Assembly: GCA_004151065.3 (NCBI GenBank)
Contig: NWUY0300006216.1
Location: forward strand, 1 to 24,679
Source of the DNA: Larix sibirica
Lineage: Eukaryota; Streptophyta; Pinopsida; Pinales; Pinaceae
Length of the DNA stretch: 24,679 nucleotides
Reading direction: 5' to 3'
In this document: positions 3,885-24,679 of the stretch, piece by piece
Numbering within the stretch: the stretch's first letter is position 1
Layout of the letters: every line of letters starts with the position of its first letter
Notes under the pieces: model-generated
Told to the model about the DNA's origin: nothing
Databases searched by the model: none
The model's input: the letters and a program-made list of their open reading frames with translations, nothing else
Position numbers and translations under genes: made by a program

Positions 3885-4035
3885 GGCCGCAAGTTTTTTT
3901 TTATATTACAAAAAGTAATTGTTTATTTGAAAAAAAAACAATTAAACCCAAGGAATGTATTAATAATTTATATACTTTTAAAAATTATATGTTAATTAAT
4001 GTAAAAATTGTAACAAGTTTAATATTTATTTAAGA
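3885..4035. other. Very AT-rich non-coding stretch
   Basis: It contains a T-run near 3894-3902, an A-run near 3930-3939 and mostly A/T between and after them. It separates the unknown coding relic from the second RNase H relic and could hold the eroded A-rich tail of an older retroelement. I see no target duplication to prove that. Confidence 0.5.
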
Positions 4036-4088
4036 TTTTGTGAAAGAACACTTCAATTAGGTGAGTTCTTTGTCAATCAAAACATCAA

Positions 4089-4470
4089 ACAAAACAAGGG
4101 TGGCAGATGCGGGGTACTTTATGACCATGGAGGAAATACAAAGGTTGAATACTCATGGGGAGTAGGGATAACATCAAACACTAAAGTAGAGGCATTCATT
4201 CTATACCAAATATTTTTTATCATTTATTTCCTTCAAGTTAAAGAGATGATTATCTTTGGGGATTCACTTATGATAGTGAACCTGGTAAAAAAAGAAATGC
4301 AAAAGGAGGAGCGACACTGAGCAAAATAATCCAAAGGATTATCAAGCTATTAGAAAAGATAGAAGAGGTAAACATCTTCCATGTACATCATTGCAATAAT
4401 AAGGAAGCAAATCAAATGGTAAATAAAACCACTTGTTTGGAAAAAGGGGTTCTCATAAAAAACTAGGAGC
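4089..4470 (+). pseudogene. Second RNase H relic (RVT_3 type), separate from the LINE above
   Basis: The frame from about 4097 gives GGRCGVLYDHGGNTKVEYSW, GVGITSNTKVEAFILYQ and then VKEMIIFGDSLMIVNLVKK, matching the G-x-x-lyDpgGn, TNNxAEaxaLyqG and GDS blocks. A one-base shift near 4300 leads to LSKIIQRIIKLLEKIEEVNI, FHVHHCNNKEANQMVNKTTC and LEKGVLIKN, then a stop. The catalytic Glu and the Asp of GDS are present, while the final ADxxAN is changed to ANxxVN. No reverse transcriptase precedes it, so it is an isolated 3' fragment of another LINE-like element or of a dual-RNase-H retroelement. Its sequence is clearly different from the copy at 1852. Confidence 0.75.
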
Positions 4471-5301: not shown

Positions 5302-8279
5302 GAGCGACCAACTTGAATTTCAAGAGAAAAAATGGGTAGAGATAGAAAAACAAAACTCAGGAGAATAGAGCTATATTGGACAGAGTGGAGAAGGGAATAA
5401 ACAAGCACTATATCATGATCTAACCTATAAATGTACATTATCAGAAGAGTTGCCAAATTTGAGTTAGAGTGAGGGTGTAAATGCACATTACTAGATTAGT
5501 AAATCCTCAAAGGACAAGGCACCACAAAGCACTACATTGATTGAATTGTGACATCCATTATTAGAATCTTCACTTCCTTCTCAAGTCCATGTTGTGGAGC
5601 ATTGGTTTATGGTGAAAATCCTCTTCCACTAATATTTCAAAGCTTAAAATATATGATTTGATTCCATGGTTGTTAATTTTGTTAATGTTAGTTTTGGATT
5701 TCATTGGATGATAATGCATTAATGATTTTGGATCAATATGTGTTATTTTATTAGATGTTTAATTATGGTCACAACCCCTCCATTCCTCTCTCTCTTTTTG
5801 GCCATAAGGCCAATTAACATACTCATGGAGGGTCAACTAACATGATCAATCAAATATATGTATGTGATACAAAACATAGTCTTGTTGTTTGTCCAAGATT
5901 CATATCTTGGCTTTTATTAAAAAACAAGGAGTTGAGAGGAATAGGGGCTCTACAAGGGTTTTATATGTGCTTATCTAGGGCATTGATGTTTTGGTATTGC
6001 TCATCATTTTCTCACTCTGGAAACCTAGTTGTCTTTTTGGTGGCTCCAAGCAATTGTTGTTTCCTTTTAAAAGGCTCAAGGGCACCTTGTAATGGCTAGC
6101 TATAATCCAAGGTTGAGTTTAACAACCCTACAAAGAATAAATTGATTGGAAGGGTGTTACTTATTATGATTTTTTTCTATTAAAATCAAACAAATCGAAC
6201 ATATCTAAGGAACCAAGTAATTAAACAACCAAAGATTACTTTAACATAAAGAATATGTACATGTAACCCTTCACCTTTCTATGACCGACCTCTAGTCTAA
6301 ACCAATATTCCACAACCAGATAGCAAATAAAGGGGGAATTCTGTCCAAGGGGTGTCTTTCCACCCATGTTATGCAATCACATGAACCCGAGTGTTGTCCC
6401 CCAAGCAAGGGCTTAAGATCGGTGAATGTGGAGGTCAGGGAAAATGAGTCAAGGTATTCACAACAAGTCAATTGAGTACCCAATAATCACATAAAAAATG
6501 TTTAGACGTCCAACTAATTAGTTAGGTTGGTGTAGATTCCTTTGAGATGACAACACTCACATACCCCTCAGAGTTATGGTGTGCAAGAACACCCACTCTA
6601 GCTCTTGATGTAACCTCAATTTGTCAGGTACACCTCCATTTGTGGCGTTTCTCTACAAGTATTGTACTCTTCCCTTGTAGTTCCTTACGTACCCAAGTTG
6701 ATGAAGATGTGGAGTCCCAACGGCCTAAAATGAATTTCGAGGCTCAAATAATGGGTATTAGTACCCCTAGTTGGTTAGGTATGCCGTCAACCTCATACAT
6801 CCAAATATGCAAAGATGGAGCAGAGATCAGACTGCTCCTATTCAATTTCCAAAACCCACAACTCTCTTTATCAAGGTAGACATTCACATCAATCCACCCA
6901 AATCTAGCCTTCTTACATAAGGTAAGCAGCTCTTTTTATAATCTTTCACAATATAGCAACTCCCTCCTAAGAAAGTCAACCTTCTCTTTCCCCCTTCTTG
7001 AATACACTAAGGGAAAAATTTGGCTCAGTAGCAATACAAGTGCTACAAAATAGGTAAAAAGTGAAATAACACTTATCCCTCTTAGAATATTTACCCTATA
7101 TCACTTATGAAATAAATTCAAGTTAGTTTTCCCCTTCCTAGGCTCTTTAGACCCCAGGACCAGGCAGGCCATCCTAATTGAGCAAGAGTCTCGTCCTTTG
7201 GAAACAATTTATATAACTTAATCTCCACCTGAGCTACTCCCATCACCTAAACCATGTTAGTGTGGGTCTTGGGAACATAACCTGCAGAAAAGTTAGCTTT
7301 CCAAAGAACATTATAGTATACATGAAAACATGAATCTAATGCATCATTAATGGAAATAAATCAATGAATCATTAAATACATAATCATCAATAATGTTCTA
7401 GGAAATAATGAGTCCAAAACATCATTTTTTAACCAAGCATCATAAGTTTCACCTAAAACAATTAAGCATAAAAAAATAAGGTCCTTAATGAAATATAGAA
7501 CAATCATAATGCATTAGGGGTGTTATAACACTCCCGCTCTAAAATATTACAACATCAAAGCTAGGTCACCATCAAACAAATAAGAATAGAGCATGGCCAT
7601 TTTCTATTTTAATTCCCCGTGTATCATCTTCTTCTCATTGATGCTACCAACAAAACTTGACCCAATAAATGACTATATTGTAGATGTTGTTGCTTAGTGT
7701 TGTGTTTAGTTAGCAAAAACTTCCCCAAAATTTTGTTTTCTCTAAAATAATAAGCGGAAGATGGGGGGCCTTCCTCAACTTTGTGCCTTGAATTTTTGCT
7801 CATGCATAAGACTATACTTCAAGGTTTTCCATCTATTCTTTTACTGAACCTCCTTGCCTTGCGTTGTTCTTCACTTGAGCTATCTTCATTTGGGTTTAGA
7901 CTAGCTAGTATTTTAATTCCTTTTTATTTGTCAATCTTTTGGCTAAATATTGTGCCTAACTTCCTCAGTTTGAAAATTGTAGCAAAGCTAAAAAGATAAT
8001 AAGTTGTGAAAATTTTCAAAAATTCACTGTGAGCTGAATAATTAATTTTTCTCTCTCTCTTGTCGGTTTTCCCTTCAGGGTTTTTCGACCAGTGTTTACC
8101 CAAAAATTCTTTGTCAATTTTGTGAGAATGGTTTTCTATTTTTGCTGCATATTGCATGTTAATAAGCTCGGTGTATTTCTCTTCATAAAAAAACAGATCT
8201 TGAATTTATTGTTTTCCATGCATGCATTTGAGTATAAAATATTTTTATTCGAAGTAGTAATCATAAATGAGCTCAAAGA
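5302..8279. other. Intergenic or unclassified repeat DNA, no gene seen
   Basis: Open frames here (for example 5842-6099, 6547-6879 and 7781-7999) are short, lack recognisable motifs and are not supported by neighbouring frames. Small CT-rich tracts occur near 5785-5797 and 8050-8062. The palindrome TGTTATAACA at 7521-7530 resembles an LTR-type terminus, but I found no partner. I see no tRNA, primer-binding site or domain in this stretch. Confidence 0.5.
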
Positions 8280-8370
8280 AACTTAACAATTTCGTGTAGC
8301 TTAGTTAAACTATTAAATTAAACACTCAAGTAAACCACAATACATAAATAAAAAACATGAGTTAAAGAAA

Positions 8371-8510
8371 GAAATAACATGAATTTGTGTATGTCTATAG
8401 GAATCGATATATGTCTGTAGGAATCTATATGCAGGTGCAAAAACTTATCTATAACTACATGAACCTATATGTGAATGCAGGAATCTGCTCAAGTATACAG
8501 AAATCGATTA
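8371..8510. repeat. 20-bp-period minisatellite in LTR1 (7 degenerate units)
   Basis: Units start at 8371, 8391, 8411, 8431, 8451, 8471 and 8491, each exactly 20 bp. The approximate consensus is ATGTCTACAGGAATCTATAT. Units diverge by substitution without indels. The same array is present in LTR2 and LTR3. Confidence 0.85.
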
Positions 8511-9534
8511 TGTTATAGTATTGTGTTTGCTTAAATGTATTTACCCAGTAAATGATAGAATTTAAATCCATGGATTAAAATTTAATTTTATGCACAAAGG
8601 TAAGTTACTTGCTTTATGTATACTTTAACAATTATGTAAATTATGTATGAAAGCTACCAAACCAAACTATGTCAAAAGTGAATCTTCATTCAACAATTAA
8701 TGCTCTCTAGCATGAATTTCATTCCCACCGTTCAATTCATAATGTTTCGCTTAGTGATCAAGTGTTCTTGTAAGCACAAAAGATGATTAATTCAATGGAT
8801 AAGAAATTACATCCACTATTAAGCTTAATTGAAACATGCTACTGACATATCATTTACAAGAATTAAAAACATAAATAACAATCTAGATTATACCATCTAA
8901 GTATCCATGAAAACCACTTAAGTGTACAACCACTAACTGAAACATTTAAGAACTGTATATTCATGCTGCTACAAAAGAAGTAAATCTACGATACTAAAGA
9001 GATGAAAATACTGAACAACAAAAGATCACAAGCAACATAGACAAATGTTATTTGCACATGAATAAAATACAGTTAAAGTGCTTAATAAACAATACTGTAA
9101 ATTACACCATGAAAATATTTTTATACATGTAAACATGCACAAAGATACCTACAAAAGAAGTTAAGTAAAAGTATTTACAAAAACAACAATAGCCTTACAC
9201 TCTGCTTGGTGGGCCCTTGCTGATTGGACTATAGAGCTATCTAGACTCCAATCTCACACAAAGATAAACACAACATCGCAGAAACTCACTTTGGCATTAA
9301 TGAATGAAAACTGGAATTATAGTGGCAAAAAATCATAAGCAAATTACTCTCTTTTACAAATTGGCAACAATTCACTCTCCAAATCTCCAATGGCTTATTG
9401 ATCCCTCGACACTCCCTTCCAGCTTCATTATACATGAGAGGTGACAAACAAACTAAAAAAAACACTCACAATTTTAGCCAAGTCATTTGCTACCTGGAAA
9501 ACAAATAAATACAAATCGAAGCGCAACATGCAAT

Positions 9535-9539
9535 TTGGG
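9535..9539. repeat. Target site duplication TTGGG, left copy
   Basis: TTGGG sits immediately before the insert and is repeated at 14755-14759. LTR2 has the uninterrupted sequence CAATTTGGGGGAATTC near 20102-20117, with the motif once, so the duplication arose on insertion. Confidence 0.9.
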
Positions 9540-9540
9540 T

Positions 9541-10002
9541 GTTAGTCCTAGAGACGTTCTAAGGCTGTATTTTAGAATTGTGCTTGGGCATCAATAATAT
9601 TGCTTGTTTTAGTTTATCGTCAGGCCAACACTTAATCAAGAATTATATCATCTACTTTAATTGCAAATATAGAGGACATCCATAATCACGATTATATGTG
9701 GCCAGGAGTTATGGCATGTCAACAAAATTTTGGAATGAATGGATAAAGGAAAATGCATGAGTAGAGGTACTGTAAAGTAAATCTTTATCTCATGTTTACA
9801 GAAAACATATTGAACAGTGAATTTAGTAGTTACAATAGAATATTAAAAAAATAAACCCAATCCTTGCTGGAATAATCCAATCAATGGTCAATTGATATAT
9901 TATGAATACTTCACAACACACAATAAAAAGATACCCACAACCATATTTGAATCAAATATCAGTGGAAGATTAAACCATGGGGACATAAACCCACTTTGCC
10001 AA
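9541..10002. other. Left flank of the insert, non-coding
   Basis: This is AT-rich sequence between the left terminus and the N gap. It lies downstream of the minus-strand coding relic, where a 3' untranslated region or terminal non-coding region would be. I see no coding motif here. Confidence 0.5.
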
Positions 10003-10024
10003 NNNNNNNNNNNNNNNNNNNNNN
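10003..10024. other. Assembly gap (22 Ns)
   Basis: The run of 22 Ns lies inside the insert, downstream of the coding relic. Its true size is unknown, so the 5,215-bp element length is provisional. Confidence 0.99.
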
Positions 10025-10229
10025 TCGACCCTATCTATTACTTGTTCTGATCTATTTATAGTCTCTTAGGCTCTTACAAGATTTACAACAAAAATTGTTA
10101 TGGAATAACAATCTTCCGTTTCTTCAAATGTTTTAAACAAAATATTGTTACAAAAATGCTTATCTGGAAAAATGATGTTGAGTCACTGGAGGCGGAGACT
10201 AGGGTCCTCCTTACCGACGTGGAGGAGGA

Positions 10230-13200
10230 TTTTGCTACTACGCTGATGCTCCAGTTGCTAGTTGTGTAGACAAGCCTCTTTCTAGCCGCGTTAGTTGGAG
10301 AAATGTAGTGATGCTTTTCCATTCTTTACCCAACGGATACCAGAAAACTTTTAGTTCCCTGAGTGCCATATCCAGATCTGTATAATGCTCAAAAGTGGGT
10401 TTTGGCAAAGACTTGAAAATCGTTTGAAGGCGACTGAGGATTTTGAAATATGGGTGCAGCTTGTCCGCGACCGTCTTTCTGTCTAACTTTCCGTCCATAT
10501 CTACTAGATGGAATCTAGAGTTACGTGCCTCTAAAAACATGACATTGTAATGATCCTTACGGTACAAATCTCGATGTCCATCCTAAAAAGACGGGAGGCC
10601 TAATGGAAACACATTGCTAAATAGGGATTTAAAAGAACGAACGTCATGGCATAGTTGGTTAGCCATGCCCCCAACATTCTGGGCCATCATACCTTTAGTG
10701 ATCACTTTGTTAGCCTCTATGATGATTTTTGTTCTATCTCAAACATCATAGGCTTGGAACTTGTCAAAGGTTTTTTCATTTAAGAAATCAATGACTGCTT
10801 TTGCTAGCTTCGTCTTTTTGTCCACGCTATTCAGGATAGTGCGAGAATCATGAGAAGTTGTCTCATCAATTTCCCACTCCTCTCGTGAAATAACAAAATG
10901 GCTCCATTGAGCCATTATGAGTGTTGCTATCTGTTCCAAAATTAGGAACCTTGCAGTTTTGAGCAAAGGCTTACCCATTAGCTTCCTAGACAAATCCCGA
11001 ATGCTCTTCTACATGTCCACTTTAGACTGATGTAGTTAAAAAATGGCAATGTATATTTTGGTTACCTCTTCATTATAGATTCTTAACTCTTCACTCTTCT
11101 ACTTTAGTTGCTCTTACACATTACTCAATTGAGTGTCTTTGAGGCTCATTTTTGCTATTGCATGTGCAAGCTTATCTGTTGGGTCAGTTGAAGATGTGGC
11201 CTGCAAAGCTGCTGGCTTTTGAAGCAAAATATCTTGATTTTTCTTTTTGAGCTCGTACACTTCCCCTTCCAGAGAAACGATTTTTTCTTTAAGTATTTGG
11301 CTATCTTCCAACGCCTTGTCCAATTCATATTGTATTGCAAGAATTTCAGTTGTCTAAGAGTGCTCAACAACGGGAATATTGAGCTTTTTCTTCAATCCTG
11401 CAATCTCTTTATCTTTCTCCTTGAACATGTTTTGAATAGGAGTTGCATCACTTGGATCTTTTACTAATTTGGTAATTTCTTGCTCCAAATTAGCAATCTT
11501 CAACTGCTTGGCTTTATTTGACGACTTTTCATTTTCTAGCTGCCTTTCTAGTCTTTTGACTAAAGCCTATAACTTATTAGTGCTCATAGTGTATTTCATT
11601 ACATCTCTATATACACCTTCACCTGTCTGTCGGTGAAGTTGCATGATGTCTTTAGAAGGGAACGTGTCCAAGTTAACTGTGACCCTTGTGATCTTATAAT
11701 CTGTTGGCACCCTCTTACCTCCAGGTGCAACCTGTTCAAGGATGGCCAATTTAGGGTACCTTGCCTCAAATCCAGAGTAGATGACATCCTGGACTGGTGT
11801 CTCGTATCAAGATCTTTCTTTGGAAAAAGAGCCTTTTGAATATATATGTTATCATCCTTTATCTGGGAGTATAAACCCAAGAGCCCATCTTTCACTGGAG
11901 ACATTGTTACTAGAGAATCTTGCTGAGAGGTTGTCTCCTGCTTCTGAGGCCACGATGCAAAGGGAAAATTTTCCAAAATGATAGGTGATAGCGACGTGGG
12001 GGTTGGATTTAGCTGTAGCGTTGTGCTGGATACTTTCTCTGACTTAAAATTTTTTGACTGGGACCCAACACTTTCATATTTTTCCTTGTCGATATTAGAG
12101 GTCGGTTCAGACACATGCCTTTTCCCTAGAATATCAAACTTGTGTGGAGTGGGAATAATTGGGGATATTACTGATTGATTCGGATCCAAATCTAGCTTTG
12201 TCTGTTCCCCACTATCCAGATTGGCGATCTTGTCTAGTATTAGATACGACTCATGAGGATAAGCCGTTGATCATGCATATTGCCTTTTTCGGGATATGAT
12301 CCCTTTAGGATCGTATTTCCATATAAAATTTGTAGAGAAGTTAAAGGTATCCAACATCTCTTCAACCACTGCTTGAGCGGACCTGCTTCTTACTTTAAAA
12401 GGCCCTACTTCACTAGGAACTTTGAAGGTCCTAGGGATATTGCCCTTCATGAAATGTACATCATCAAAATTGAATTTCTCACGAATATATTCAAAAGAAA
12501 AGAGTCTAGGAGTCAGAAACACGAGTAGTTTATATGGGTCTTGTTATGCTCCATAAACTCAAATCTCAATGTGTGTTTCAAATCAAAACCAATCCCCAAT
12601 TGAGTCGTCAGGGTTTTGCTAGAGAAACTTCTTACACTCTGGAAGGATACTGGGAGGAGGGGCATCAAATAATGAGAAATAGAATTTAGTCATGATGACA
12701 TCCACAAATACAGAAAATCGTTCATGGCTTGTAACAGAAGCAACTGAATTCTAGGCATCCTCTCGATCAAAGAATTCTTTGTTATGGAAGATGATGATGT
12801 AAATAAAGTAGTAGGTGTATCTAAGAAGCTTTCTAGTAGCAAAATTCTTGAACTGTAACTGCATATACTAAGCAAGGAAATATGCAAAACTTGATTGGTG
12901 ACTCATGCTGTGATAGATTTATCAGGAAAATAAAACCTAAGGCAACATCATCGATTACTAAATCATGATCATAACCAAGTATATGACATACCAATGATAG
13001 TGCAGGACATGATTGCTCGGAGAATACTGCTAAACTGAACACATACTATGTGCTTGGCAGGTTTGCTTCCGTGGGAAGCAACATCCTAATGAATGCTTCC
13101 CTACTTTCTGATGACAATTCGCTAAATTTAGAAGCCATGAAATCCTAGTCAAAATCAAAGCTGGAACTGTCCTCCTTCGTGTCTGTCATTTCAATGAGGA

Positions 13201-13525
13201 GCTCCCTCTGAATTGGACATACAATTGATTCGAGGCGGGAGATAACAACTTTTCTTTCGGGCGCATATCTCTTTGCGCACCACTTCACGAGCTCTGGGAA
13301 GGCTTGGGCTTGAGGTAAAATCATATTCACTAATCCAGAGCCCTAGAGGTTGAATGTATCATTTCTGCTCTTGGCAGGGTCTTCTACCTCTCGAGATAAC
13401 TGATGCAAATTTGGAAATGATAGTATGGGGTCATGAATGTCAAAATGCTCATCCCCCAAGTGCTTCTCCTTGTTTAGAATAGAGCTTGCAGAGGGAATTG
13501 TTTCAGGTTCTGCGACAGATGCCAT
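10230..13525 (-). pseudogene. Large coding relic in the insert, coiled-coil protein of unknown function
   Basis: The frame starts at an ATG at 13523-13525 in a strong context (CCACCATGG) and can be followed for about 1,095 codons. One frame covers 13525 to about 12855, another about 12850 to about 11800, then the first frame returns to 10238: two offsetting frameshifts plus roughly 18 stops. The N-terminal ~350 residues look globular (AFPELVKWCAKRYAPERKVV, EAFIRMLLPTEANLP, CHILGYDHDLVIDDVALGFI, LLRYTYYFIYIIIFHNKEFF). Residues ~445-580 are rich in Ser, Thr and Pro. Residues ~655-805 form a coiled coil (ALVKRLERQLENEKSSNKAK, IAGLKKKLN, DKALEDSQILKEKIVSLEGE). Residues ~845-1095 are helical (LILEQIATLIMAQWSHFVIS, MALRELKVFWYPLGKEW). 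I recognise no catalytic motif. It may be a retroelement gag-like protein or a captured host gene. Confidence 0.7.
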
Positions 13526-13658
13526 GGTGGAGCTTGTGGAGTGAATGCAAGGATGAAGAATGCTCTGGATAAGCTAAGAATCAGGTGGTGTGGCAATGAA
13601 AAAGCATAGTAGCTCGCAATAGAAGAAGCATGAGTGCTCAAACAATTCAAATAATGCA

Positions 13659-13668
13659 CATATATAGC
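13659..13668 (-). promoter_or_regulatory. Candidate TATA box for the insert's coding relic
   Basis: The minus strand reads CGCTATATATG here, about 135 bp upstream of the relic's ATG. That would place transcription start near 13630 and give a leader of about 105 nt. This is a motif and spacing argument only. Confidence 0.5.
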
Positions 13669-13845
13669 GGGATTTTGAAAATGAGAGACTTAAATGAGTT
13701 AGACGCGTGGCATCTGGCGATTGGTCCTTTAGGCGAGGGTTGCGGGGGTATTTAATGCGCGGGGACCATTGCCGTTAAAATGGTGGCGGTAATATCCATT
13801 GGGTAAAATCCCAGTGGGTCCATCATGAAAACATCATACTCATAA

Positions 13846-14492
13846 GGCAGTTTTAGCGCTCTATGAAGGCGGTATTAAGTAACTGCTTTTTGGGCCCTAA
13901 ACGAGCCTGGAGCTGCCATGTGGAACAGGTGGTTTTTGTTCAGGGTCACACTAGACTCTTTAAACATCGAGCAGCTACGACGGCCTGAAAACATTACAGT
14001 CGTAGATATCATCATCTCGAGATCTGCGCTTGACTTGAGGGGTTATCATAGTCACATGGCCCACTTGATCTGATAGATTCCCGTCGTGAGGTAACAACCA
14101 CCTATATTTTTTTGAAAACTAAAAGGAGTGGTTTCAGGGCCACAATAAGGTGGTTTTCTTAGACTTCTTTTGAGGCCCTGAATCCATATTATGTTGACAC
14201 GTGTCTAGGCGGTTTAGGACGTGAATTATCAATTGAGCATATTGGGAACCCCGAAAGGACGTGAACCGTTGATATGTGATAAACACAGATATCAAGATCT
14301 TCTAAATTCGGGTATCTTTGCAACGTACGACGAGGTGCTTCCTCATTACGTCAATGTACCTCATGGTCTTCGGGCTACGCCACTTTATCATTGCTTTCTT
14401 ATGGCAGTTTTAGGGCTCCTTATAGGCGGTTTTGATAGACTGCTTTTAGGGTCCTGAATGAACTTGAGAGAGCCGCGTGGCTAGACGGTTTA
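13846..14492. repeat. Three degenerate copies of a promoter-side repeat
   Basis: Copies lie at about 13846-13938, 14126-14216 and 14403-14492. Shared blocks in order are GGCAGTTTTAGGGCTC, AGGCGGTTTT, TAGACTGCTTTT, GGGCCCTGAAT and GCGTGGCTAGACGGTTTA, with substitutions and small indels. A weaker partial copy starts near 13930. They lie upstream of the TATA box on the coding relic's side, as enhancer-like subrepeats often do in transposon terminal regions. Confidence 0.7.
14196..14205. promoter_or_regulatory. Palindromic G-box (GACACGTGTC)
   Basis: This is a perfect 10-bp palindrome with a CACGTG core, the plant bZIP/bHLH binding site. It lies inside the second promoter-side repeat copy. The corresponding places in the other two copies read CATGTGG and CGCGTGG, so only this copy has the full core. 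It is about 670 bp upstream of the relic's ATG. Confidence 0.5.
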
Positions 14493-14754
14493 TCATTTAA
14501 GGCTCGAACTCTCTGCTTAAAAGTCGCGCACTTCTGGGCCCTGAATAAATCTCCACCATTGATCTAAAATTTTATGTGTCAAACTCTGGAGATCGCTTAA
14601 TGTTACGATTGACAACTTCATGATCACTCCCACAGTAAAACCTCAGTAATTTTCCTTCGGATTTAAGCTCGAATCTCCATGATACGAATGTGTCTACGTC
14701 ACCTGTGATCAACTGCGTTGCTTTTTGTTGGTCGAGAAAATACTGGTACTAACA

Positions 14755-14759
14755 TTGGG
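14755..14759. repeat. Target site duplication TTGGG, right copy
   Basis: It directly follows the insert's terminal CTAACA and matches 9535-9539. Sequence to its right (AAAATTTGTGTTGAAGATTAG) continues the LTR as in LTR2 at about 20111. Confidence 0.9.
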
Positions 14760-15338
14760 AAAATTTGTGTTGAAGATTAGCTTAAATATCCTAAACCGTT
14801 CATGATTTTGAGAAACCATCCATGTTGTAATCAATTTTTCATACTATGAACAAAACACATGTTTTAGTTTTCCAAGATTCATCTTCATCACCTCGTAAAT
14901 CATGCCAAAAGTTAGTTGTTTGAAAACTGCTGCTAATTTCGACCAAATCATTGACCAAGTGGTTGGAGGTTCACACGTGCGACTTGGACATGATCTAATG
15001 GACACATAACCACCTAGAAGCATACAACTATCATATCCATGTGCCCATTCCTGCATTGGACACGTGGAAGTATGAGTAACAATGATGAAGGTTGCAGGAA
15101 TTTAATTGTACCACAAGAACTAAACTATGGTTGTAAACTGTCATTACCAAAATCATAACATAATCCACTTTAATCACTAAAAATAATAGAAAAATAGATG
15201 TATTAACCACAAGTGCATATTAAGATTTGAATGAAGATTTGCTAATGGAAATGGTCATATATTATGGATGAAGTGTGAAAAATGGCTTATGAATATGGAC
15301 TTATTTGATAGTAGATATGACAAAATCATAGGCCAACA
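14760..15338 (-). repeat. LTR1 right portion (sense LTR start)
   Basis: This resumes LTR homology after the insert and matches 20111-20710. It ends in GGCCAACA on the + strand, so the sense LTR begins TGTTGGCC, directly next to the polypurine tract. With the left portion, LTR1 has about 1.83 kb surviving of roughly 2.05 kb. Confidence 0.85.
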
Positions 15339-15378
15339 TCTCCCCCACACCCGAGGATTGGCATGTCCTCATGCCAAT
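15339..15378 (-). other. Polypurine tract and adjacent hairpin, internal 1
   Basis: The minus strand carries GGGTGTGGGGGAGA abutting the LTR, the expected plus-strand primer. Just upstream in sense lies ATTGGCATG-AGGA-CATGCCAAT (15357-15378), a perfect 9-bp stem with a 4-base loop. A stem whose loop region reads GAGGACA, followed by GTGTGGGGGAG, is a recurrent arrangement in plant Ty3/gypsy elements. Confidence 0.8.
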
Positions 15379-16190
15379 TGAGTGAGGAAATGAGATACTT
15401 GTATTTCAAATGAAGCTTGGGAAATTTTATACTCAATCATTTTTAACTTGAAGACCAACATTTACTTGTGGTCTTTGCTTAAATAGACAACCATGAATTC
15501 ATCCTTTTTAGAGAACATTCAATGATGACTTATGAATGTTTATAAAGCACAAGGTGAGATATGTTGCTTTATTTTGTATTTGTATACCACGATTACTTTT
15601 CTTTTATTTTATTCATGGTCTTGTGATCAAAGTATGAGCCTTATTGTGGATGGTGAATTTACAAATCGAAGGTCTGATAATTAATGATGATGGTATTTGT
15701 GAGTGGTGATGAATTGTATGGATGGTGGTTTCCCAAATTTCTCATGAAATACAGATTCTTACACTTGTTTTACCTCAAGTTTACCCTTGCTTTGAATTAT
15801 ATTGTAGATTGAAAGAGGACTGTGTAGAACTGATGCATGATGAATTAAGGTTAAAGATGGGGCATATCAAGGCTGAAAGCTGCTAGGGAAATCCGCGGTT
15901 GATCATCCACAAAATATCCATCTCGGAATACTAAAATGATCTCCGATTTCATGCTGCAAAGGAGGAGATAATATTACCATATTTGATCTGGAATGTTTTA
16001 TTTTTTGTAGCATAGAATCATGGAAATACTGAAAAAGTGGCTACTAGAAATGTTATGATGTGAATACTTAGACTTTAGAAACTAATCAAATTTGAGTAAA
16101 ATGAATTCTAGCTGCATAACAGGAACTGGAGGATGCATTTGAGGTGATGCAATACTAAACAAGATTTCTTGCGACCTTTATGTATTTTCG

Positions 16191-16266
16191 ATAGCATCAT
16201 GGAGATTCTGTGACACTAAGGAGTTCCAGTAACACTATGGTATTTCTGCAACATAGTGGAGTTCTT
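16191..16266. repeat. 19-bp tandem repeat, four units, internal 1
   Basis: Units start at 16191, 16210, 16229 and 16248, each exactly 19 bp. The approximate consensus is GTAACACTATGGAGTTCCT. The matching array in internal 2 is 21572-21647. Confidence 0.8.
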
Positions 16267-16375
16267 GCAACCAGAGATACAAAAAGACACTGCTGCTGCA
16301 GAAACTGATGAGAATGATGTAAAGTTGGAAATGCTGTCAAAATTTATTGCTTCCAAGACTAGTACTGATGGGCAA

Positions 16376-16412
16376 TCCCCCACATTGAGATCTTTGCATT
16401 TCCTCATGCAAA
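16376..16412 (-). repeat. Second PPT-like site with hairpin, internal 1
   Basis: The minus strand reads GTGGGGGA (16376-16383) next to a hairpin TTTGCAT-GAGGAA-ATGCAAA (16393-16412). This repeats the layout of the true polypurine tract about 1 kb away, although no LTR adjoins it. It looks like a duplicated or relict PPT region. Confidence 0.65.
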
Positions 16413-17278
16413 TGAAGTAGGGAATCTTTGATCCATTTTAACAGAGCTGAGAGGACATATGAAAATATGAGAATGAGCATGGTTGTTGGATGATGAATGT
16501 TGATCAAATCCACTGAACTATACCATGCTACAGGATTGATACCGATGTTGCTAATGATGAAAATCTAGACTCTATATTAGAACCAAACTAAAAATGAAAG
16601 ATGAATACTAAATCAAAACAAAAATTCTACTGCTACCGTTGATACCATAAACCATATAGTCTTCACATACAAACATTACTATTGCAATTCAATCTATGTG
16701 AATGGATTTACTTGGATTTGAACATAGAAAGAAATCATTGGATTAACGATCAATAATGTAAATCGTTAACCAATGCGAGATGACACACCATTAATGTCAA
16801 TGGGAATCGAGGTACAAAAGTACATTCTAGTTGGCGTGAATGAATGTGTTGGAGTCAAACACCTATAGAATACATTGGTCAAGGAACATTTATGTATTCC
16901 CTTACTAATAGCGAGAGAACCTGCTATTAAGGCATGTAGGCCCCAAGGTACTTATAAAAATTTCTAATCTAAATCCTAGATGATGCGCTGGAGTCGATGG
17001 TATGAGATTTGTCAGAAGGTGAGCCTTATGGAATTTCACGTCACTCAACATGAGCATAGAACATAAATAATTTTCAAGAACCACATTACAAAATTAAACC
17101 AACATACATAACTTTATTGAGAATTTTGCCCGCTAGTTGCCTTGTTTTCAAGTAAAACTAATGTCCAATTGTGCCAGTAAATTGGTTTTCACAACTAGAC
17201 TTATTTTTATTTTTACTATTTTATTAATTTATTTAGTTATTTACCCTATGCTCCTTTACTTGAAAAAGAAAGTCTCTT

Positions 17279-17917
17279 TCAAGTGTAGGAATACTTCCAA
17301 TGGACCCATTTGCATAACAAGATCTCTAGTGTATTCATACCCAAATCTGAAAAGTGTACCTCAATGAATACCGAGGTATGAGAGGGCAGCTGCTCTTGTG
17401 AATATGGTTCCAAGAAGTGTTGAAGGACGGTGTGGTATTGTGGCCTGATGACTGTTTGGAACCAAGCTTCAATGTATTCTTTGTCTCCTTGGATTTGTTT
17501 GGAATTCATGAAATGCAATTCTTTGGAAAGTGGGTCATCACATTCCATAATACACAAAGGATCTAGTGATAAACATGCCGAAAATTCTTCGTTATCAGGC
17601 TCAAGTATTTTCTCTTCATCTAATGTGGTCCATGATCCTTGATTTATTCCATCTACTCACACAGACTATTAGGAGAAACTTCTATATCCTACTCTTGTAG
17701 AGTATGTTCATGGATCCCAAATTCTTTTATTGTTTCTTGGATTCCTGATTCATCCATAGTGACAATTATGGACAAGGACTTGAGACAATCCTTGTTATAT
17801 AATTTCCTCCTTTGCTCAACAAGTTCCTGAGCATCTTTAGTTCTTAATTGATCTAGAGCTGCTGCTCACAAATGCATTAATACCTGGGGTTCTTACAACA
17901 CCATTTTTTTTTTTTTT
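17279..17917 (-). pseudogene. Gag-like coding remnant, internal 1
   Basis: This is the first coding-like stretch downstream of the primer-binding site in sense, starting after an A-run next to ATGG at about 17905. Pieces include KDAQELVEQRRKLYNKDCLK, IQETIKEFGIHEHTLQE and, in a second frame, CDDPLSKELHFMNSKQIQGD and YIEAWFQTVIRPQYHTVLQH. Its position is where gag begins in Ty3/gypsy elements, but I cannot identify a gag domain. It is charged and helical, about 200 codons, and broken by stops and at least one frameshift. The equivalent remnant in internal 2 shares the peptide pieces, which supports a once-coding origin. Confidence 0.5.
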
Positions 17918-18297
17918 AAATATTGAAGAAATGGAAATGAAACTAACTACAAAAATAAAATATACAAAACAAATTACAAAACATAGCATGTATTCAGACA
18001 CCTCACGCTACTAAGGCCCTGCTGTCACCAAGATGCCTGTGAACATGAGAAGCTTTGCCCTTTCTATGCATAGAAAAGAAAACACATTGTACCAACCCGA
18101 CGAGGGTTCAAAGAAACCCACTAAAGTGGATGCATCCAAATATTACACCACATAAATTATGTTGTGAGGTCGTCTTTGCATCTTACCGTTTCTCCTGCTC
18201 CAACTCGTAAATGTTGGCTTAATAAAAAAAAATATATGGGAACAAAAATATAAAATGCAAAAAATCAACTACTAATACTCTAACCTCTTTAGCATCT

Positions 18298-18314
18298 CCT
18301 CGGCAACGACGCCA
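18298..18314 (-). other. Primer-binding site, tRNA-Asp type, internal 1
   Basis: The minus strand reads TGGCGTCGTTGCCGAGG. The complement of the plant tRNA-Asp(GUC) 3' end is TGGCGCCGTTGCCGGGG, so 15 of 17 match and both differences are transitions. It is separated from LTR2 by a 4-base spacer (18315-18318). Confidence 0.85.
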
Positions 18315-18637
18315 AAAATGTCTGTCAAATTATATGCATAACTTTCGAACATTAAATTATTGACCGGGTGGTTCGTAAACTTCAAGATGAAAGCACAGGA
18401 AATTCAAGATCAGAGTAATATCTAATCTAAGTGAACTGAAATTAAAGGCAAATATGTTTAACCAATCACTTCCAAGGATTAAAGCTAAGTTCTAAAGTCC
18501 TATAACTAAGTGCAATACAATTGAATTAGTGACTTACCAATTTTTTGTAGCTTAGTTAAACAGTTAAATTAAACTTTCAAAAATAAATCACAATACATAA
18601 ATAAAAAACATGTGTAAAAGAAAGCAGGAATATGCGT

Positions 18638-18757
18638 ATGTCTGCAGGAATTGATATATGTCTGCGGGAATATATATGTAGGTGCATAAACTTATATGTA
18701 ACTACATAAATCTATATGCGAATGGAGGAACCTGCTCAAGTATATAGAAATTGCTTA
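18638..18757. repeat. 20-bp-period minisatellite in LTR2
   Basis: Six units of exactly 20 bp start at 18638, 18658, 18678, 18698, 18718 and 18738, matching units 2-7 of the LTR1 array one for one. The last unit is also the start of the 313-bp duplication. Confidence 0.85.
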
Positions 18758-19363
18758 TGTAATAGTCTTTTGTTTGCTTAAATGTGTTTACCCAATTAAT
18801 GATGGAATTTAAATATAGGGATTAAAATGTAAATTTATGCACAAAGGTAAGTTACTTACTTTATGTATACTTTAACAGTTATGCAAATTATGTATGGAAG
18901 CTACCAAACCAAACCGCGTGAAAATAAATTTGCATTCAATAGTTAATGCTCTCTTAGCATGAATTTTATTCCCACAATTGAATTCACAATGTTTCACTTA
19001 GAGATCAAGTGTTCTCATGAACACAAAAGATGATTAATTCAATGGCTAGGAAGTATACAGAAATCGATTATGTAATAGTCTTGTGTTTGCTTAAATGTGT
19101 TTCCCCAATTAATGATGGAATTTAAATATAGGGATTAAAATGTAAATTTATGCACCAAGGTAAGTTACTTGCTTTATGTATACTTTAATAGTTATGCAAA
19201 TTATGTATGAAAGCTACCAAACCAAAATGCGTGAAAATAAAATTGCATTCAATAGTTAATGCTCTCTTAGCATGAATTTTATTCTCTCGATTCAATTCAC
19301 AATGTTTCACTTAGCGATCAAGTGTTCTTGTGAGCACAAAAGATGATTAATTCAATGACTAGG
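18738..19363. repeat. 313-bp tandem duplication private to LTR2
   Basis: 18738-19050 and 19051-19363 are adjacent copies starting AAGTATA and ending in CAATGGCTAGG or CAATGACTAGG. LTR1 and LTR3 have the segment once. The copies differ by scattered substitutions, so the duplication is not recent. Confidence 0.85.
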
Positions 19364-19554
19364 AAGTATAAGCTTAAATGAAACATGCTACAAAAAGACC
19401 ATTTACAAGAATTAAAATGATAAAATAACAATCGAGATTAAACCATCTAAGTATCCTTGAAATCCACTTTAGTATATAACCACTAACTAAAACATCTAAG
19501 AACTGTATGCTCGAGCTGCTACAAAAGAAGTAAATCCATGATGCAAAAGAGATG

Positions 19555-19630
19555 AAAATACTAAACAACAAAAGATCACAAGTGGTATAAACAAAATACT
19601 AAACAACAAAAGATCACAAGTGGTATAAAC
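19555..19630. repeat. 38-bp tandem duplication in LTR2
   Basis: 19555-19592 and 19593-19630 are identical or nearly identical copies beginning AAAATACTAAACAACAAAAG. LTR1 (near 9010) and LTR3 (near 24535) have one copy. Confidence 0.9.
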
Positions 19631-19999
19631 AAACGTTTTGTGCACATGAATAAAACAGAGTTAAAATGATTAATAGACAATACTAGAAATTACACCATGA
19701 ACATATTTGTATACATGTAAAGATACATACACGTTGAGTAAAAGTATTTACAAAAACAACAATAGCCTTACACTCCACTTGGTGGGCCCTTTCCTATTTC
19801 ACTGTAGATCTAGCTAGACTCCAATCTCACACAGTGATCAACACACCATTGCAGAAACTCACATTGGCATTAATTAATGAAAATTGGAATAACAATGGCA
19901 ACAAAATCATAAGCATAGTACTATGTTTTACAAATTGGTAACAATTCACTCTCTAAATCTCTAATGTATTATTAATCCCTCTACACTCCCTTCCACCTT

Positions 20000-20007
20000 T
20001 ATTTATA
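20000..20007 (-). promoter_or_regulatory. Candidate LTR TATA box
   Basis: The minus strand reads TATAAATA about 705 bp into the sense LTR, a plausible U3 promoter position. The equivalent LTR1 site near 9428 is eroded to TATAATGA. Confidence 0.4.
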
Positions 20008-20624
20008 CATGAGAAGTGGGAAACAAACTCAAAACAACATTCACAATTTTAACAAAGTCCTTTTCTAGTTGGAAAAAAAATACAAATATGGGCACAACAT
20101 GCAATTTGGGGGAATTCATGTTGAAGATCCGCCTAAATATCCTAAATCGTTTCTGATTTTGAGAAACTGCTCATGCGACACTCAATGTATCATACTATGA
20201 ACACAACCCATGTTTTAGTTTTCCAAGGTTCGTCTTTATCACCTCATAAATCATGCTAGAAGTTAGTTGTTTGAAAACTAGTGCTAATTTCAACCAAATC
20301 ATTGACCAAGTGCTTGGAGGTTCACATGTCCGACCTGGGAATGATTCGATGAACACATAAACATCTATAAGCATCCAGCTATCATATCCATCGGCATGCT
20401 CATCCATTGTATACATGGAAGTATGAGGAAAACTTATGAAGGTTGCGGGAACTAAACTGTGCTGCAGGAACCGAATTGTGGCTATAAACCACCATTGGAA
20501 AAATCATAGCATAATCCACTTTAATCACTAAAAACATTACAAAATAGAGGTATTAGCCACAAGGGCATATTAAGGCTTGAATGGAGGTTTGGTAATGGAA
20601 ATGGTCATATATTATGGATGAAAT

Positions 20625-20672
20625 GCAAAAAATAGCTTATGAATAGTGGCAAAAAATGGCTTATGAATAGTG
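20625..20672. repeat. 24-bp tandem duplication in LTR2
   Basis: 20625-20648 and 20649-20672 are adjacent copies of GCAAAAAATGGCTTATGAAT plus AGTG, differing at one base. LTR1 has the motif once near 15277. Confidence 0.85.
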
Positions 20673-20710
20673 AGCTTATTTGATAGTAGATATGACAAAA
20701 TTGGAGCCCA

Positions 20711-20750
20711 TCTCCCCCACATCTAAGGATTGGCATGTCCTCATGCCAGT
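20711..20750 (-). other. Polypurine tract and adjacent hairpin, internal 2
   Basis: The minus strand carries GTGGGGGAGA abutting LTR2, with the hairpin at 20729-20750. The stem has one mismatched pair relative to the perfect copy in internal 1. Confidence 0.8.
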
Positions 20751-21571
20751 TGAGTGAGGAAATGAGATACTTGTATTTCAAATGAAACTTGGGCAATTTT
20801 ATACTCAATCATTTTTAACTTGAAGACCACCATTTACTTATGGTGTTTGCTTGAATAGACAACCATGATCTCATCCTTTTTAGATAACTTTCAACGATGA
20901 CTTATGAATGTTCATAATGCACTAGGTGAGATATGCTACTTTATTTTGTATTTGCATACCGGAATTACTTTGCTTTTATTTTATTCATGGTCTTGTGATA
21001 AAAGTATGAGTCTTATTGTGGATGGTATATTTGAAAATGGATGGTTTGATAATTAACGATGATGGTATTTCGTGAGTAGTGATGAATTGTATGGAGTGTG
21101 GTTGTCCATCATGTTTCCCAAATTTCTAGTGAATTAAAGAGTCTTATACTTTTTTTACCTCAAGTGTACCTTTGCTTTGAATTTTACTAGCATAATGAAA
21201 GAGGATGATGTAGACTTGATGCATGATGACTGGAGAAGATGAGGCATATCAAGGCTGAAAGCTGCTGGAGAAATATGAATCTGATCATCCACAAAATCAC
21301 CATCTCAGAATAATGAAATGATCTTCGATTTCATGTTGCAAAGGAGGAGATAATCTTACTGAATCTGATATGGAATGTTGTCTTTTGTGTAGCATAGAAT
21401 CTTGGAAATACTAAATAGGTGGCTACTAGAAAAGTTAAGATGCGAATACTTAGACTTTAGAAACTAATCAAATATGAGTAAAATGAAGTCTAGTTGCAAA
21501 TCTGGAATTGGAGGATGCATATGAGGTGATGGAATACTAAATAGCCTTTCCTTCCACCTCTATGTATTTCC

Positions 21572-21647
21572 GTAGCATTATGGAGTTCCTGTGACACTAT
21601 GGAGTTTTGATAACACAATGGGATTTTTGCAACGTAGTAGAGTTCCC
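21572..21647. repeat. 19-bp tandem repeat, four units, internal 2
   Basis: Units start at 21572, 21591, 21610 and 21629, with the same period and unit number as in internal 1. Confidence 0.8.
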
Positions 21648-21756
21648 GCGACCAGTGACACAAAAAGATACTTCTGCTGCAGAAACTAATGATAATGATG
21701 TAAATATGGAAATGTTATCAAACTTTATTGTTGCCAAGACTGGCACTGATGGACAC

Positions 21757-21793
21757 TCCCCCACATCGATATATTTGCATCTCCTCTTGCAAA
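21757..21793 (-). repeat. Second PPT-like site, internal 2
   Basis: GTGGGGGA on the minus strand is followed by a weaker TTTGCAT...TTGCAAA hairpin. It is the counterpart of 16376-16412, so the duplicated layout predates the chaining. Confidence 0.6.
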
Positions 21794-22559
21794 TGAATTA
21801 GGGAATATTTGATCCATTTTAATAGATCTAAGAGGACACTTGAAAATATGAAAATGAGCAAGGTTGTTGGATGATGAATGTCGATCAAATCCACTAAACT
21901 ATACCATGCTACAAGACTAATATTGATGTTGCCAATGATGAAAATCTAGACTTTGTTATTATAACCAAACTGAAAATGAAAGCTGGATACTAAATTAAAA
22001 CTAATATTCTACTGCCGTTTTCGATACCATAAACCATATAATTGTCACATATAAACCTTACTAGTACAATTCAATCTATGTGAATGGATTTAATTGGAGT
22101 CGAACATAGAAAAAATTATTGGATTACCGACCAATAATGCAAATCGTTAACCAATGCGAGATGACCCACCATTAATGTCAATGGGAATCAAGGTACAAAA
22201 GAACACTCTAGTTGGTGTGATTGAATGTGTTGGAGTCAAACACCTATAAAATCCATCAGTCAAGAAACATTGATGTATTCCATTGCTAATAGTAAGAGAA
22301 CCTTCCATTAAGGCAAGCAGGCCCCAAGGTATTTATAAACATCTCTAATTTCAATCCTAGATGATGTGATGCAATCAATAAGATGGGATTCGTCGGAAGG
22401 TGAGCCTTAAGGAATCTCATGTCCAATTGTGCTAATGAATTGGTTTTCACATATGGACCTATTTTTATCTTTACTATTTTGTTCATTTATTTACTTATTT
22501 ACACTATCCTACTTTACTCGGAAAATAAAATCTCTTTCAAGTGTAGGAATACTCCCAAT

Positions 22560-23180
22560 GGAGCCGTTTGGGTAACAAAATATCTAGTGCAATCATACCC
22601 AAATTTGAAAAGTGTACCTCAATGAATACCAGGATATGAGAGGCCAACTACACGTGCTAATAAATGTTGAAGGACGGTGTGGTATTGTGGCTTGATGACT
22701 GTTTGGAACCAAGTTTCGATGTAATATTTGTCTCCTTGAATTTCTTTGATTGTCATGCCATGAAATTATTTGGAAAGTGGGTCATCACATTATGTGATGC
22801 ACAAAGGATCTGGTGATAAACATGCCAAAAATTCTTCGATCTATGGCTCAAGTATCTACTTTTCGTTTGATGTGGTCCATGATCCTTTGATTTTTTCCAT
22901 CTGCTCACATAGACTATTAGGAGAAACTTGTAGATCCTCCTCTTGTAGAGTATGTTCATGGATCCCGAGTTCCTCTATTACTTCTTGGATTTCAGATTCA
23001 TCCCTAGTGAAAATTCTAGAGTGTGGAAAAGGACTTGAGGCAAACCTTGTAATATAATTTCCTCCTTTGCTTAACAAGTTCTTGAGCATATTTAGTTCTT
23101 CTGGATTATTTAGAGCTCTTGCTCACAAATGGAGTAGTAGATGGGGTTCTTATAGAACCATTTTTTTTTTGGTTTAAAAT
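22560..23180 (-). pseudogene. Gag-like coding remnant, internal 2
   Basis: This is the counterpart of the remnant at 17279-17917. After an A-run and ATGG, the sense strand gives ESEIQEVIEELGIHEHTLQE, EDLQVSPNSLCEQMEKIKGS and, in the same direction further on, CDDPLSK, IKEIQGDKYYIETWFQTVIK and PQYHTVLQHLL. Stops and frame changes break it. Its longest clean stretch is 22856-23089. I recognise no zinc knuckle or protease motif. Confidence 0.5.
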
Positions 23181-23563
23181 TTTTATTGAATAAATGGAAA
23201 TGAAACTAACTAAAAAAATAAAGTACACAAAACAAATTGCTAAACATAAAATGTATTCGAACACCTCACGCTACTAAGGTCCCACGATCACCAAGTTGAC
23301 TGTGAACATGAGAATCTTTTCATTTTCCAAGCATAAAAAATAAAACACATTGTACCAACATGACAAGGGCTCTGAGAAACCCACTAAAGTGGATGCGTTG
23401 AGCTATTACATCACATAAATTATGTGGTGAGGTCGTCTGTTCGTCTTATCATTTCTCCTACTCCAAGTCATAAATGTTGTCTTAATAAAAAATTATATAT
23501 ATGAACAAAAAGATAAAAATAAATAAAAAATCAACTACTAATACTCTAATCCATTTAGCATCT

Positions 23564-23580
23564 CCCCGACAACGACACCA
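23564..23580 (-). other. Primer-binding site, tRNA-Asp type, internal 2
   Basis: The minus strand reads TGGTGTCGTTGTCGGGG, 14 of 17 to the tRNA-Asp complement. All three changes are C to T on the sense strand. A 4-base spacer separates it from LTR3. Confidence 0.8.
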
Positions 23581-23584
23581 ATTT

Positions 23585-24656
23585 TTTTTATCAAGTTATA
23601 TGCATAATTTCCGAACATTAAATTATCGTCTAGGTGGTTCATAAACTTTGAGATGCAAGGACAGGAAATGTAGGATCAAAGCAAGATCTAAGATAAGAGA
23701 ATTGAAATTAAAGGCAAATGTGTTTAACCAAGCACTTCCAAGGATTAAAGCTAAGTTCTAAAGTCCTGTAACTAACTGCAATACAATTGACTTAATGACT
23801 TATCAATTTCTTATAGCTTAGTTAAACAGTTAAATTAAACACTCATACATAAATCGCAATACATAAATAAAAAACACGAGTAAAAGAAAGCAATAACAAG
23901 AATCTACATATGTCTACAAGAATCGATATATGTCTACGGGAATCTATATGCATGTGCAAAAACTTATATGTAAATACAAGAATCTATATGTGAATGTAGG
24001 AACCTTCTCAAGTATACATAAATCGCTGATGTAACAATCTTGTGTTTGCTTAAATGTATTTACCCAATTAATGATAGAATTTAAATATAGGGATTAAAAT
24101 GTAAATTTATCCTCGAAGTTAAGTTACTTGCTTTATGTATACTTTAATATTTATGAAAATTATGTATGAAAGCTACCAAACCAAACTGCATGAAAAGTAA
24201 ATCTTCATTCAACAGTTAATGCTCTCTTAGCGTGAATTTCATTCCCACAGTTTAGTTCACAATGTTTCACTTAGCGATCAAGTGTTCTTGTGAGCACAAA
24301 AGATAATTAATTCAATGACTAAGAATTTACATCCATTGTATAAGCTTAAATGAAACAAGCTACAAAAGATCCTTTACAAGAATTAAAACATAAAATAACA
24401 ATCTAGATTAAACCATCTAAGTATCCTTGCAAACCACTTAATTATATAACCACTAATTGAAACATCTAAAAATTGTATGCTCGAGCTGCTACAAAAGAAG
24501 TAAACCCATGATACCAAAGAGATGAAAATACTGAACAACAAAAGATCACAAGTGATATAGACAAACGTTCTGTGCACATGAGTAAAATAGAGTTAAAGTG
24601 ATTAATAAATAATACTAGAAATTACACCATGAACATATTTGTATACATGTAAACAA
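23585..24656 (-). repeat. LTR3, left portion only
   Basis: This is homologous to LTR2 from its first base, although the terminal TG is eroded. Homology to LTR1 and LTR2 stops near 24656 within CATGTAAACA. The last 20 or so bases of the window are unrelated, so another breakpoint or insertion starts here. Confidence 0.8.
23890..24029. repeat. 20-bp-period minisatellite in LTR3
   Basis: Seven units of exactly 20 bp start at 23890 and match the LTR1 array in register and order. Confidence 0.85.
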
Positions 24657-24679
24657 GGTATTTTTTAAGGATTCTAATA

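Follow-up and report, generated by a model that had tools for sequence, protein, structure and literature searches.

A very probable solo long terminal repeat of a Tat-type retrotransposon with a gene relic inside it in Larix sibirica

What kind of mobile element leaves a single 5.2-kb insert that has a long gene inside it and no visible pair of terminal repeats? The question is raised by contig NWUY0300006216.1 of Larix sibirica (assembly GCA_004151065.3), positions 1-24,679 of which, read on the forward strand, are referred to here as the window. The insert lies at 9540-14754 of the window and contains the relic of a gene of ~1,095 codons. The initial annotation had offered two readings, namely a giant solo long terminal repeat (LTR) carrying a protein-coding gene, or a non-canonical element with short inverted ends. 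Our analysis supports the former: very probably, a Tat-type Ty3/gypsy retrotransposon once stood at this site and was reduced, presumably by LTR-LTR recombination, to a solo LTR. We regard the unit as an LTR because its copies on other contigs of the same genome flank gag-pol on both sides, lying upstream of it in contig C4480 and downstream of it in contigs C9941 and C7107.

Boundaries of the insert and its empty site

The insert is exact, measures 5,215 bp (22 N at 10003-10024 included) and sits in a tandem array of ~5.3-kb units that extends over 8281-24679, with 84.6-86.7% identity between units across four aligned blocks. TTGGG was found on both sides of its TG...CA ends, as annotated initially, and the joined flanks align to a single TTGGG in a neighboring array unit. 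The empty site is therefore real, but the "LTR2" to which it had been assigned is a unit of the tandem array and not a shown LTR. The insert is younger than the array; its GC content is 0.40 vs. 0.31-0.35 in the array, and its CpG observed/expected ratio (0.57 vs. 0.35-0.41) indicates less CpG loss. Its transcription sense is the minus strand, with the U3 end at 14754 and the U5 end at 9540. The features that define the insert and its host array are as follows.

9535-9539, no strand: target site duplication TTGGG, left copy (flank alignment to the empty site)
14755-14759, no strand: target site duplication TTGGG, right copy (flank alignment to the empty site)
20106-20110, no strand: empty target site, a lone TTGGG in array copy B (joined insert flanks align there)
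9540-14754, minus strand: very probable solo LTR, 5,215 bp (target site duplication, empty site, TG...CA ends, gag-pol adjoining in C4480 and C9941)
9540-9551, plus strand: inverted LTR end TGTTAGTCCTAG (10/12 match to the opposite end)
14743-14754, minus strand: inverted LTR end TGTTAGTACCAG (terminus TGTTAGTACC)
8281-18531: array copy A, with the insert within it
18532-23797: array copy B
23798 to the window end: array copy C, partial

No LTR pair was found inside the insert, in agreement with the initial annotation. The two direct comparisons of the end regions yielded scores of 15.5 (shuffle mean, 17.7) and 16.5 (shuffle mean, 16.9); an authentic repeat from the array, of comparable age and used as positive control, scored 400. 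A pair decayed past recognition is excluded, since copy B lacks the insert and copies A and B differ by only 14-15%. Lacking an internal pair, the insert must be either a single LTR or some other entity with TG...CA ends. The two termini match inversely at 10 of 12 positions and not at all beyond, and an inverted comparison of the first and last 150 bp gave a score of 8.0 (shuffle mean, 9.6).

One such other entity would be a DNA transposon bounded by inverted ends of 12 bp and flanked by a 5-bp duplication, whose ~1,095-codon protein would be a transposase of a new type. A single intronless gene within short inverted ends, the 5-bp duplication, the missing LTR pair and the selection on the protein described below would all suit such an element. 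Against it, a Pfam scan of all six frames of the insert detected no transposase or integrase domain, and plant LTRs longer than 3 kb with 10-bp inverted ends are on record in Retrosat2 and RIRE8 (available text of PMC3485330). Ginger transposons, described with TGT ends, terminal inverted repeats of ~40-270 bp and an integrase (available text of PMC2836005), were considered and rejected, as the inverted ends here stop at 12 bp, no integrase lies inside and pol adjoins the unit.

gag-pol DNA beside copies of the unit

A search of the 618-Mb source assembly with one end of the insert (14355-14754) returned nine matches, one of them the window and the other eight distributed over seven contigs. 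The whole unit is spanned by C18816:3660-9023, in two blocks of 80% and 88% identity, and by C4480 (minus strand, 44511 to ~39192), whose main block is 77% identical and whose ends are mutated. Several C4480 comparisons were trimmed by ~22 bases at the unit end (44489 used), which leaves the conclusions unaffected. Partial copies were found in C9941, C10698, C15327, C9651, and C7107. In C18816, C9941, and C10698 the unit starts at the same position, with TGTTAGTACC; C9651 and C4480 also reach this terminus, where a single base differs. Upstream flanks are dissimilar among the window, C9651, C10698, and C4480; C9941 and C18816 have 70 nt of flank in common (83% identity), the 3′ terminus of the internal region, ahead of the 3′ LTR. 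Another reading of this common flank, as the site of primer binding with gag-pol running opposite to the gene, was ruled out by the domain order in C4480 and C9941.

In the kind of genome search proposed initially, pol was found to adjoin copies of the unit. In C4480, Retrotrans_gag (E 1.5e-5), RVT_3 RNase H (2e-16), and RVT_1 follow the unit downstream in the same sense; the RVT_1 match (E 7e-4) is below the Pfam cut-off and is cut by the end of the stretch. The flank upstream of that unit encodes an unrelated copia gag (PF14223, 9e-23), which we take as interrupted host sequence. In C9941, on the minus strand and running toward the unit, RNase H (26403-25951) is followed by reverse transcriptase (RT; 25123-24394) and a PFV-like integrase (23943-23167), and the unit begins with TGTTAGTACC at 19477, downstream of all three, with gene and gag-pol in one sense. 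Structure-chain matches in this contig include the Ty3 RT chains 4ol8 and 7q5b and the PFV integrase chain 3l2q, among others. The best RT match (4ol8, 1.3e-12) lies at 22069-21632, in a near-identical second stretch nearer the LTR. This second internal stretch (22914-20826 by BLAST, 77.6%) ends 1.35 kb from the LTR start, and no N was seen between it and 19477 (base 20200 excepted from view). The internal DNA of C9941 and C4480 is 77.6% identical over 3,546 columns, and in C7107 the LTR fragment is preceded by such DNA over 687 columns (77%). To the extent that the contigs can be relied upon, gag-pol on either side of the unit contradicts a DNA transposon, which we consider extremely unlikely; the initial alternative of a non-canonical element with short inverted ends is likewise unsupported, given this adjacency, inverted ends of no more than 12 bp and a scan that detected no transposase domain.

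Could the C4480 and C9941 pieces represent a gene-bearing element nested beside an unrelated Tat element? The contigs are short, with single-N joins, N runs and near-identical duplicates, all of which leave room for such an arrangement. We nevertheless consider it very unlikely: both contigs have related, same-sense internal DNA (77.6%) adjoining the unit, in C4480 by its gag end and in C9941 by its integrase end, with C7107 as another example, and chance nesting would hardly yield such a pattern. The near-identical duplicates occur at single-N joins in both C9941 and C4480 (L009/L010 and L021/L019; 99.3-99.97%). Such duplicates, which might pass for young LTR pairs, probably arose in the assembly and were not counted as LTR pairs.

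Several observations weigh against identification of the unit as an LTR. Both LTRs of one element were not seen on a single contig, and the C4480 and C18816 copies are without a target duplication. The domain order in C9941 depends in part on duplicated assembly. In C4480, a second unit (99.97% identical), which we read as an assembly duplicate, adjoins a single-N join and has the same gag-side DNA downstream. A primer binding site-like stretch at 39184, ~7 bases past the inferred LTR end in C4480, is a weak match (12/18 to a tRNA-Asp-type motif, equaled in 7 of 1,000 shuffles). By eye, no obvious polypurine tract precedes the LTR start in the C9941 and C18816 flanks. Finally, a canonical AATAAA downstream of the gene is absent from the window and C18816, although C4480 has one.

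The domain order also indicates the lineage. RNase H precedes RT in C9941 and likewise in C4480, and the C9941 RNase H matches chains 4e19, 3hst, 3u3g, 4h8k, 3aly, and 2ehg, several of which we take to be archaeal. Judged from domain order, a Ty3-type RT, the integrase and an archaeal-type RNase H, the element would belong to the Tat lineage of Ty3/gypsy. RNase H before RT is the Tat structure #2, reported from three clubmosses and all gymnosperms studied (available text of PMC10508981), and TatI and TatII have RNase H in the same position (PMC6317226, in part). Taken by itself, this arrangement would point to a gymnosperm or clubmoss as the probable host. Large non-chromovirus elements with LTRs of up to ~5 kb and extra open reading frames (ORFs) are also described in the latter source.

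Other features were observed near these copies. In C9941, a polyprenyl synthetase domain (28237-28947, i.e., L010 8037-8747; E 2.8e-58), probably of a host gene, lies near the Tat copy. C10698 has direct repeats of ~1.45 kb (5982-7417 and 14436-15890; 86% identical, 8.5 kb apart) that start just past the point where the LTR fragment breaks off and are possibly another LTR element; the flank of the fragment (L015 1-4312, minus strand) encodes a DUF4283 domain (E 9.8e-21).

The gene and promoter within the unit

The gene relic that had been noted initially proved to be real, with stop counts in its frame segments far below those of shuffled sequence. It is located as follows.

10238-13525, minus strand: relic of the ~1,095-codon gene (ORFs, stop counts; relatives in C18816 and C4480)

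The gene starts with an ATG at 13525 in the context CCACCATGGC, ends with a stop codon at 10238-10240 and can be read without any intron. Over the 1,103 codons examined there are 18 stops and at least two frame changes (at ~12.88 and ~11.81 kb). Compared with dinucleotide shuffles, the 522-codon segment has 8 stops (mean 32, lowest 17 in 1,000 shuffles), the 352-codon segment 7 (mean 21.7, lowest 8), and the 232-codon segment 4 (mean 12.9), a count equally low in 2 of 1,000 shuffles. A cruder and less decisive control, based on the best 400-codon stretch in six frames, gave 6 stops against a shuffle mean of 12.5, with the lowest of 200 shuffles also at 6. GC content by codon position is 0.46/0.33/0.40. 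TAG makes up 12 of the 19 stops listed over the three frame segments, a share that would fit decay of methylated CAG.

The window copy of the gene is dead. In a neutral simulation of one array lineage, run with the A/B substitution spectrum, 10.8 ± 3.3 stops were expected since the A/B duplication, and 18 or more arose in 3% of 200 runs; 7.1 frameshifts were expected, compared with the at least two seen. Based on this simulation, the gene was probably intact or nearly so at insertion, although the excess of stops over expectation speaks against the strict form of that statement.

By tblastn, the gene was present in all seven copy contigs, whole in C18816 and C4480 and partial in the other five. 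Identity over the longer segments is 57-75% for C18816 and 48-71% for C4480, some values being lowered where segments cross the query's wrong frame. Calculated on aligned codons without stops, dN/dS was 0.326 between the window and C18816 (1,046 codons) and 0.283 between the window and C4480 (1,031 codons). Across 15 pairs drawn from the window and five copies (C9941 and C9651 left out), it ranged from 0.138 to 0.539, with the highest value for C18816 vs. C15327. Values of ~0.3 indicate that the protein was selected while the family moved. As they include neutral change contributed by dead copies, the mobile lineage was probably under stronger selection than they suggest.

The protein itself resembles nothing in the collections searched. 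No Pfam family matched the protein, and none matched the six insert frames; the TRP28 and plant mobile domains in particular were listed neither at E up to 1 nor, for the six frames, at E up to 0.1, whereas the scan did detect a decayed RNase H of a long interspersed nuclear element (LINE) elsewhere in the window. There was no match in PDB and no relative among 7,992, 1, and 846 candidates scored from a large protein set whose plant share is uncertain; these searches thus yielded no relative outside the source genome. Viral contigs (searched with two pieces) and prokaryote genomes (one piece) contained no relative either, and structure predictions for two stop-free pieces were of low confidence (mean pLDDT 53.6 and 44.3) and uninformative. 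The lack of relatives in Pfam, PDB and the protein set would be in keeping with a captured passenger gene that has no role for the element, as would the observation that extra ORFs of plant LTR elements are often mutually unlike (PMC6317226, in part). We consider a passenger unlikely, as the gene occurs in every copy contig and is complete in both full-length copies, its dN/dS of ~0.3 holds across ~1,000 codons, and its promoter is the LTR's own. The parts of the unit outside the gene, as we read them, are as follows.

13636-14754, minus strand: U3-like promoter region, ~1.1 kb (TATA, repeated modules; transcription start inferred)
13660-13666, minus strand: TATA box TATATAT (motif; comparison of six sequences)
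14425-14458, minus strand: 34-bp module, copy 1 (33/34)
14149-14182, minus strand: 34-bp module, copy 2 (28/34)
13868-13901, minus strand: 34-bp module, copy 3 (27/34)
9540-10237, minus strand: putative 3′ part of the LTR, end of R plus U5

Promoter sequences were compared among the window, C9941, C18816, C4480, C10698, and C9651. TATATAT is present in four of the six, with TATATGT in C9941 and TAGATAT in C4480, and the gene's ATG is kept in all six. Transcription would start near 13636, ~30 bp past the TATA box and ~110 nt upstream of the ATG. Upstream of the TATA box are three phased 34-bp modules in the sense of gag-pol; the window, C9941, C18816, C10698, and C9651 have them ~295, 575-590, and 855-873 bases into the LTR. 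C9651 has a fourth module match, and two modules exceed the threshold in C4480.

The remainder of the window was also surveyed. Apart from one sub-threshold cadherin match, the array units (8281-24679) have no convincing Pfam domain. Unit B contains a 313-bp direct tandem duplication (18738-19370; 93% identical) that is younger than the array, and unit A a 125-codon open stretch without Pfam match (17279-17656, minus strand). An L1-type LINE relic occupies 1384-2271, with zf-RVT at 1384-1470 and RVT_3 RNase H at 1927-2271 (E 2.8e-8), and a second, weak RVT_3 match lies at 4000-4320 (E 0.01). Rfam and tRNA scans of the window gave no match.

Proposed mechanism and known systems

The gene and gag-pol share one sense, and the gene lies between the TATA box and the end of the LTR. 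We propose that genomic RNA would start in the 5′ LTR near 13636, with the gene in leading position, followed by the primer binding site and then gag. The sequence from the RNA start up to the primer binding site would correspond to R/U5, which reverse transcription would copy into both LTRs; because the gene lies within that interval, it would be copied with it. A complete insertion with two ~5.2-kb LTRs could then have been reduced to the solo LTR by LTR-LTR recombination. With the gene in both LTRs, every solo LTR would stay a promoter-plus-gene unit, and the protein may be an accessory factor of the element. We suggest, tentatively and as somewhat less than an even prospect, that in a Tat lineage an accessory gene under selection was brought into the LTR, behind the LTR promoter, giving two copies per insertion and making each solo LTR a free-standing gene whose product could act in trans.

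LTRs are usually held to be control regions, whereas the data here point to a plant-type element whose LTR houses a gene under selection. Solo LTRs, commonly dismissed as debris, might express a protein acting on the family; if so, they could help or restrain the remaining elements, and solo-LTR formation would have a functional consequence. Such an arrangement raises the questions of where the RNA terminates, how translation reaches gag-pol downstream of the gene, and whether the protein is made from solo LTRs. For annotation there is a warning, in that the unit alone resembles a gene-bearing DNA transposon with short inverted ends.

Among known systems, Tat elements (structure #2, PMC10508981; TatI/TatII, PMC6317226; both in part) share with the present one the gag, the RNase H-RT-integrase order and the 5-bp duplication, and LTRs of up to ~5 kb are described for large non-chromovirus elements (PMC6317226, in part). 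The difference is that the LTR here contains a conserved gene of ~1,095 codons; reviews, in their available text, place extra ORFs in the internal region (PMC7264820; PMC11963269). Retrosat2, RIRE8, and FRetro3 resemble it in having LTRs >3.2 kb with multicopy cis elements, 10-bp inverted ends in the case of Retrosat2 and RIRE8, and ORF0, an extra, fast-evolving ORF upstream of gag-pol (available text of PMC3485330). However, these elements are grouped with the Tekay/Del chromoviruses and not with Tat (PMC6317226, in part), and the available text of PMC3485330 describes ORF0 as upstream of the gag-pol ORF and not as part of the LTR. Retand TRP28 and other extra ORFs are likewise accessory proteins with no role assigned that are conserved across copies, but such ORFs lie in the internal region, that of Retand being antisense and placed between pol and the 3′ LTR (available text of PMC7264820 and PMC11963269). 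The LTR gene described here further differs from TRP28 in matching neither it nor any other Pfam family.

Outside plants, the sag gene of mouse mammary tumor virus lies within the LTR, in U3, and is hence doubled at both ends. Compared by description only, that system is an animal retrovirus with its gene in U3, whereas the gene here follows the TATA box. A plant report of a conserved gene inside an LTR was not found in the literature searched, which does not show its absence from print, and the extra ORFs counted upstream of the polyprotein in PMC6317226 (available text) might include LTR-borne ones. Within that literature, Tat elements, large LTRs with short inverted ends and extra ORFs are already known, and what would be new is a conserved gene within a plant LTR.

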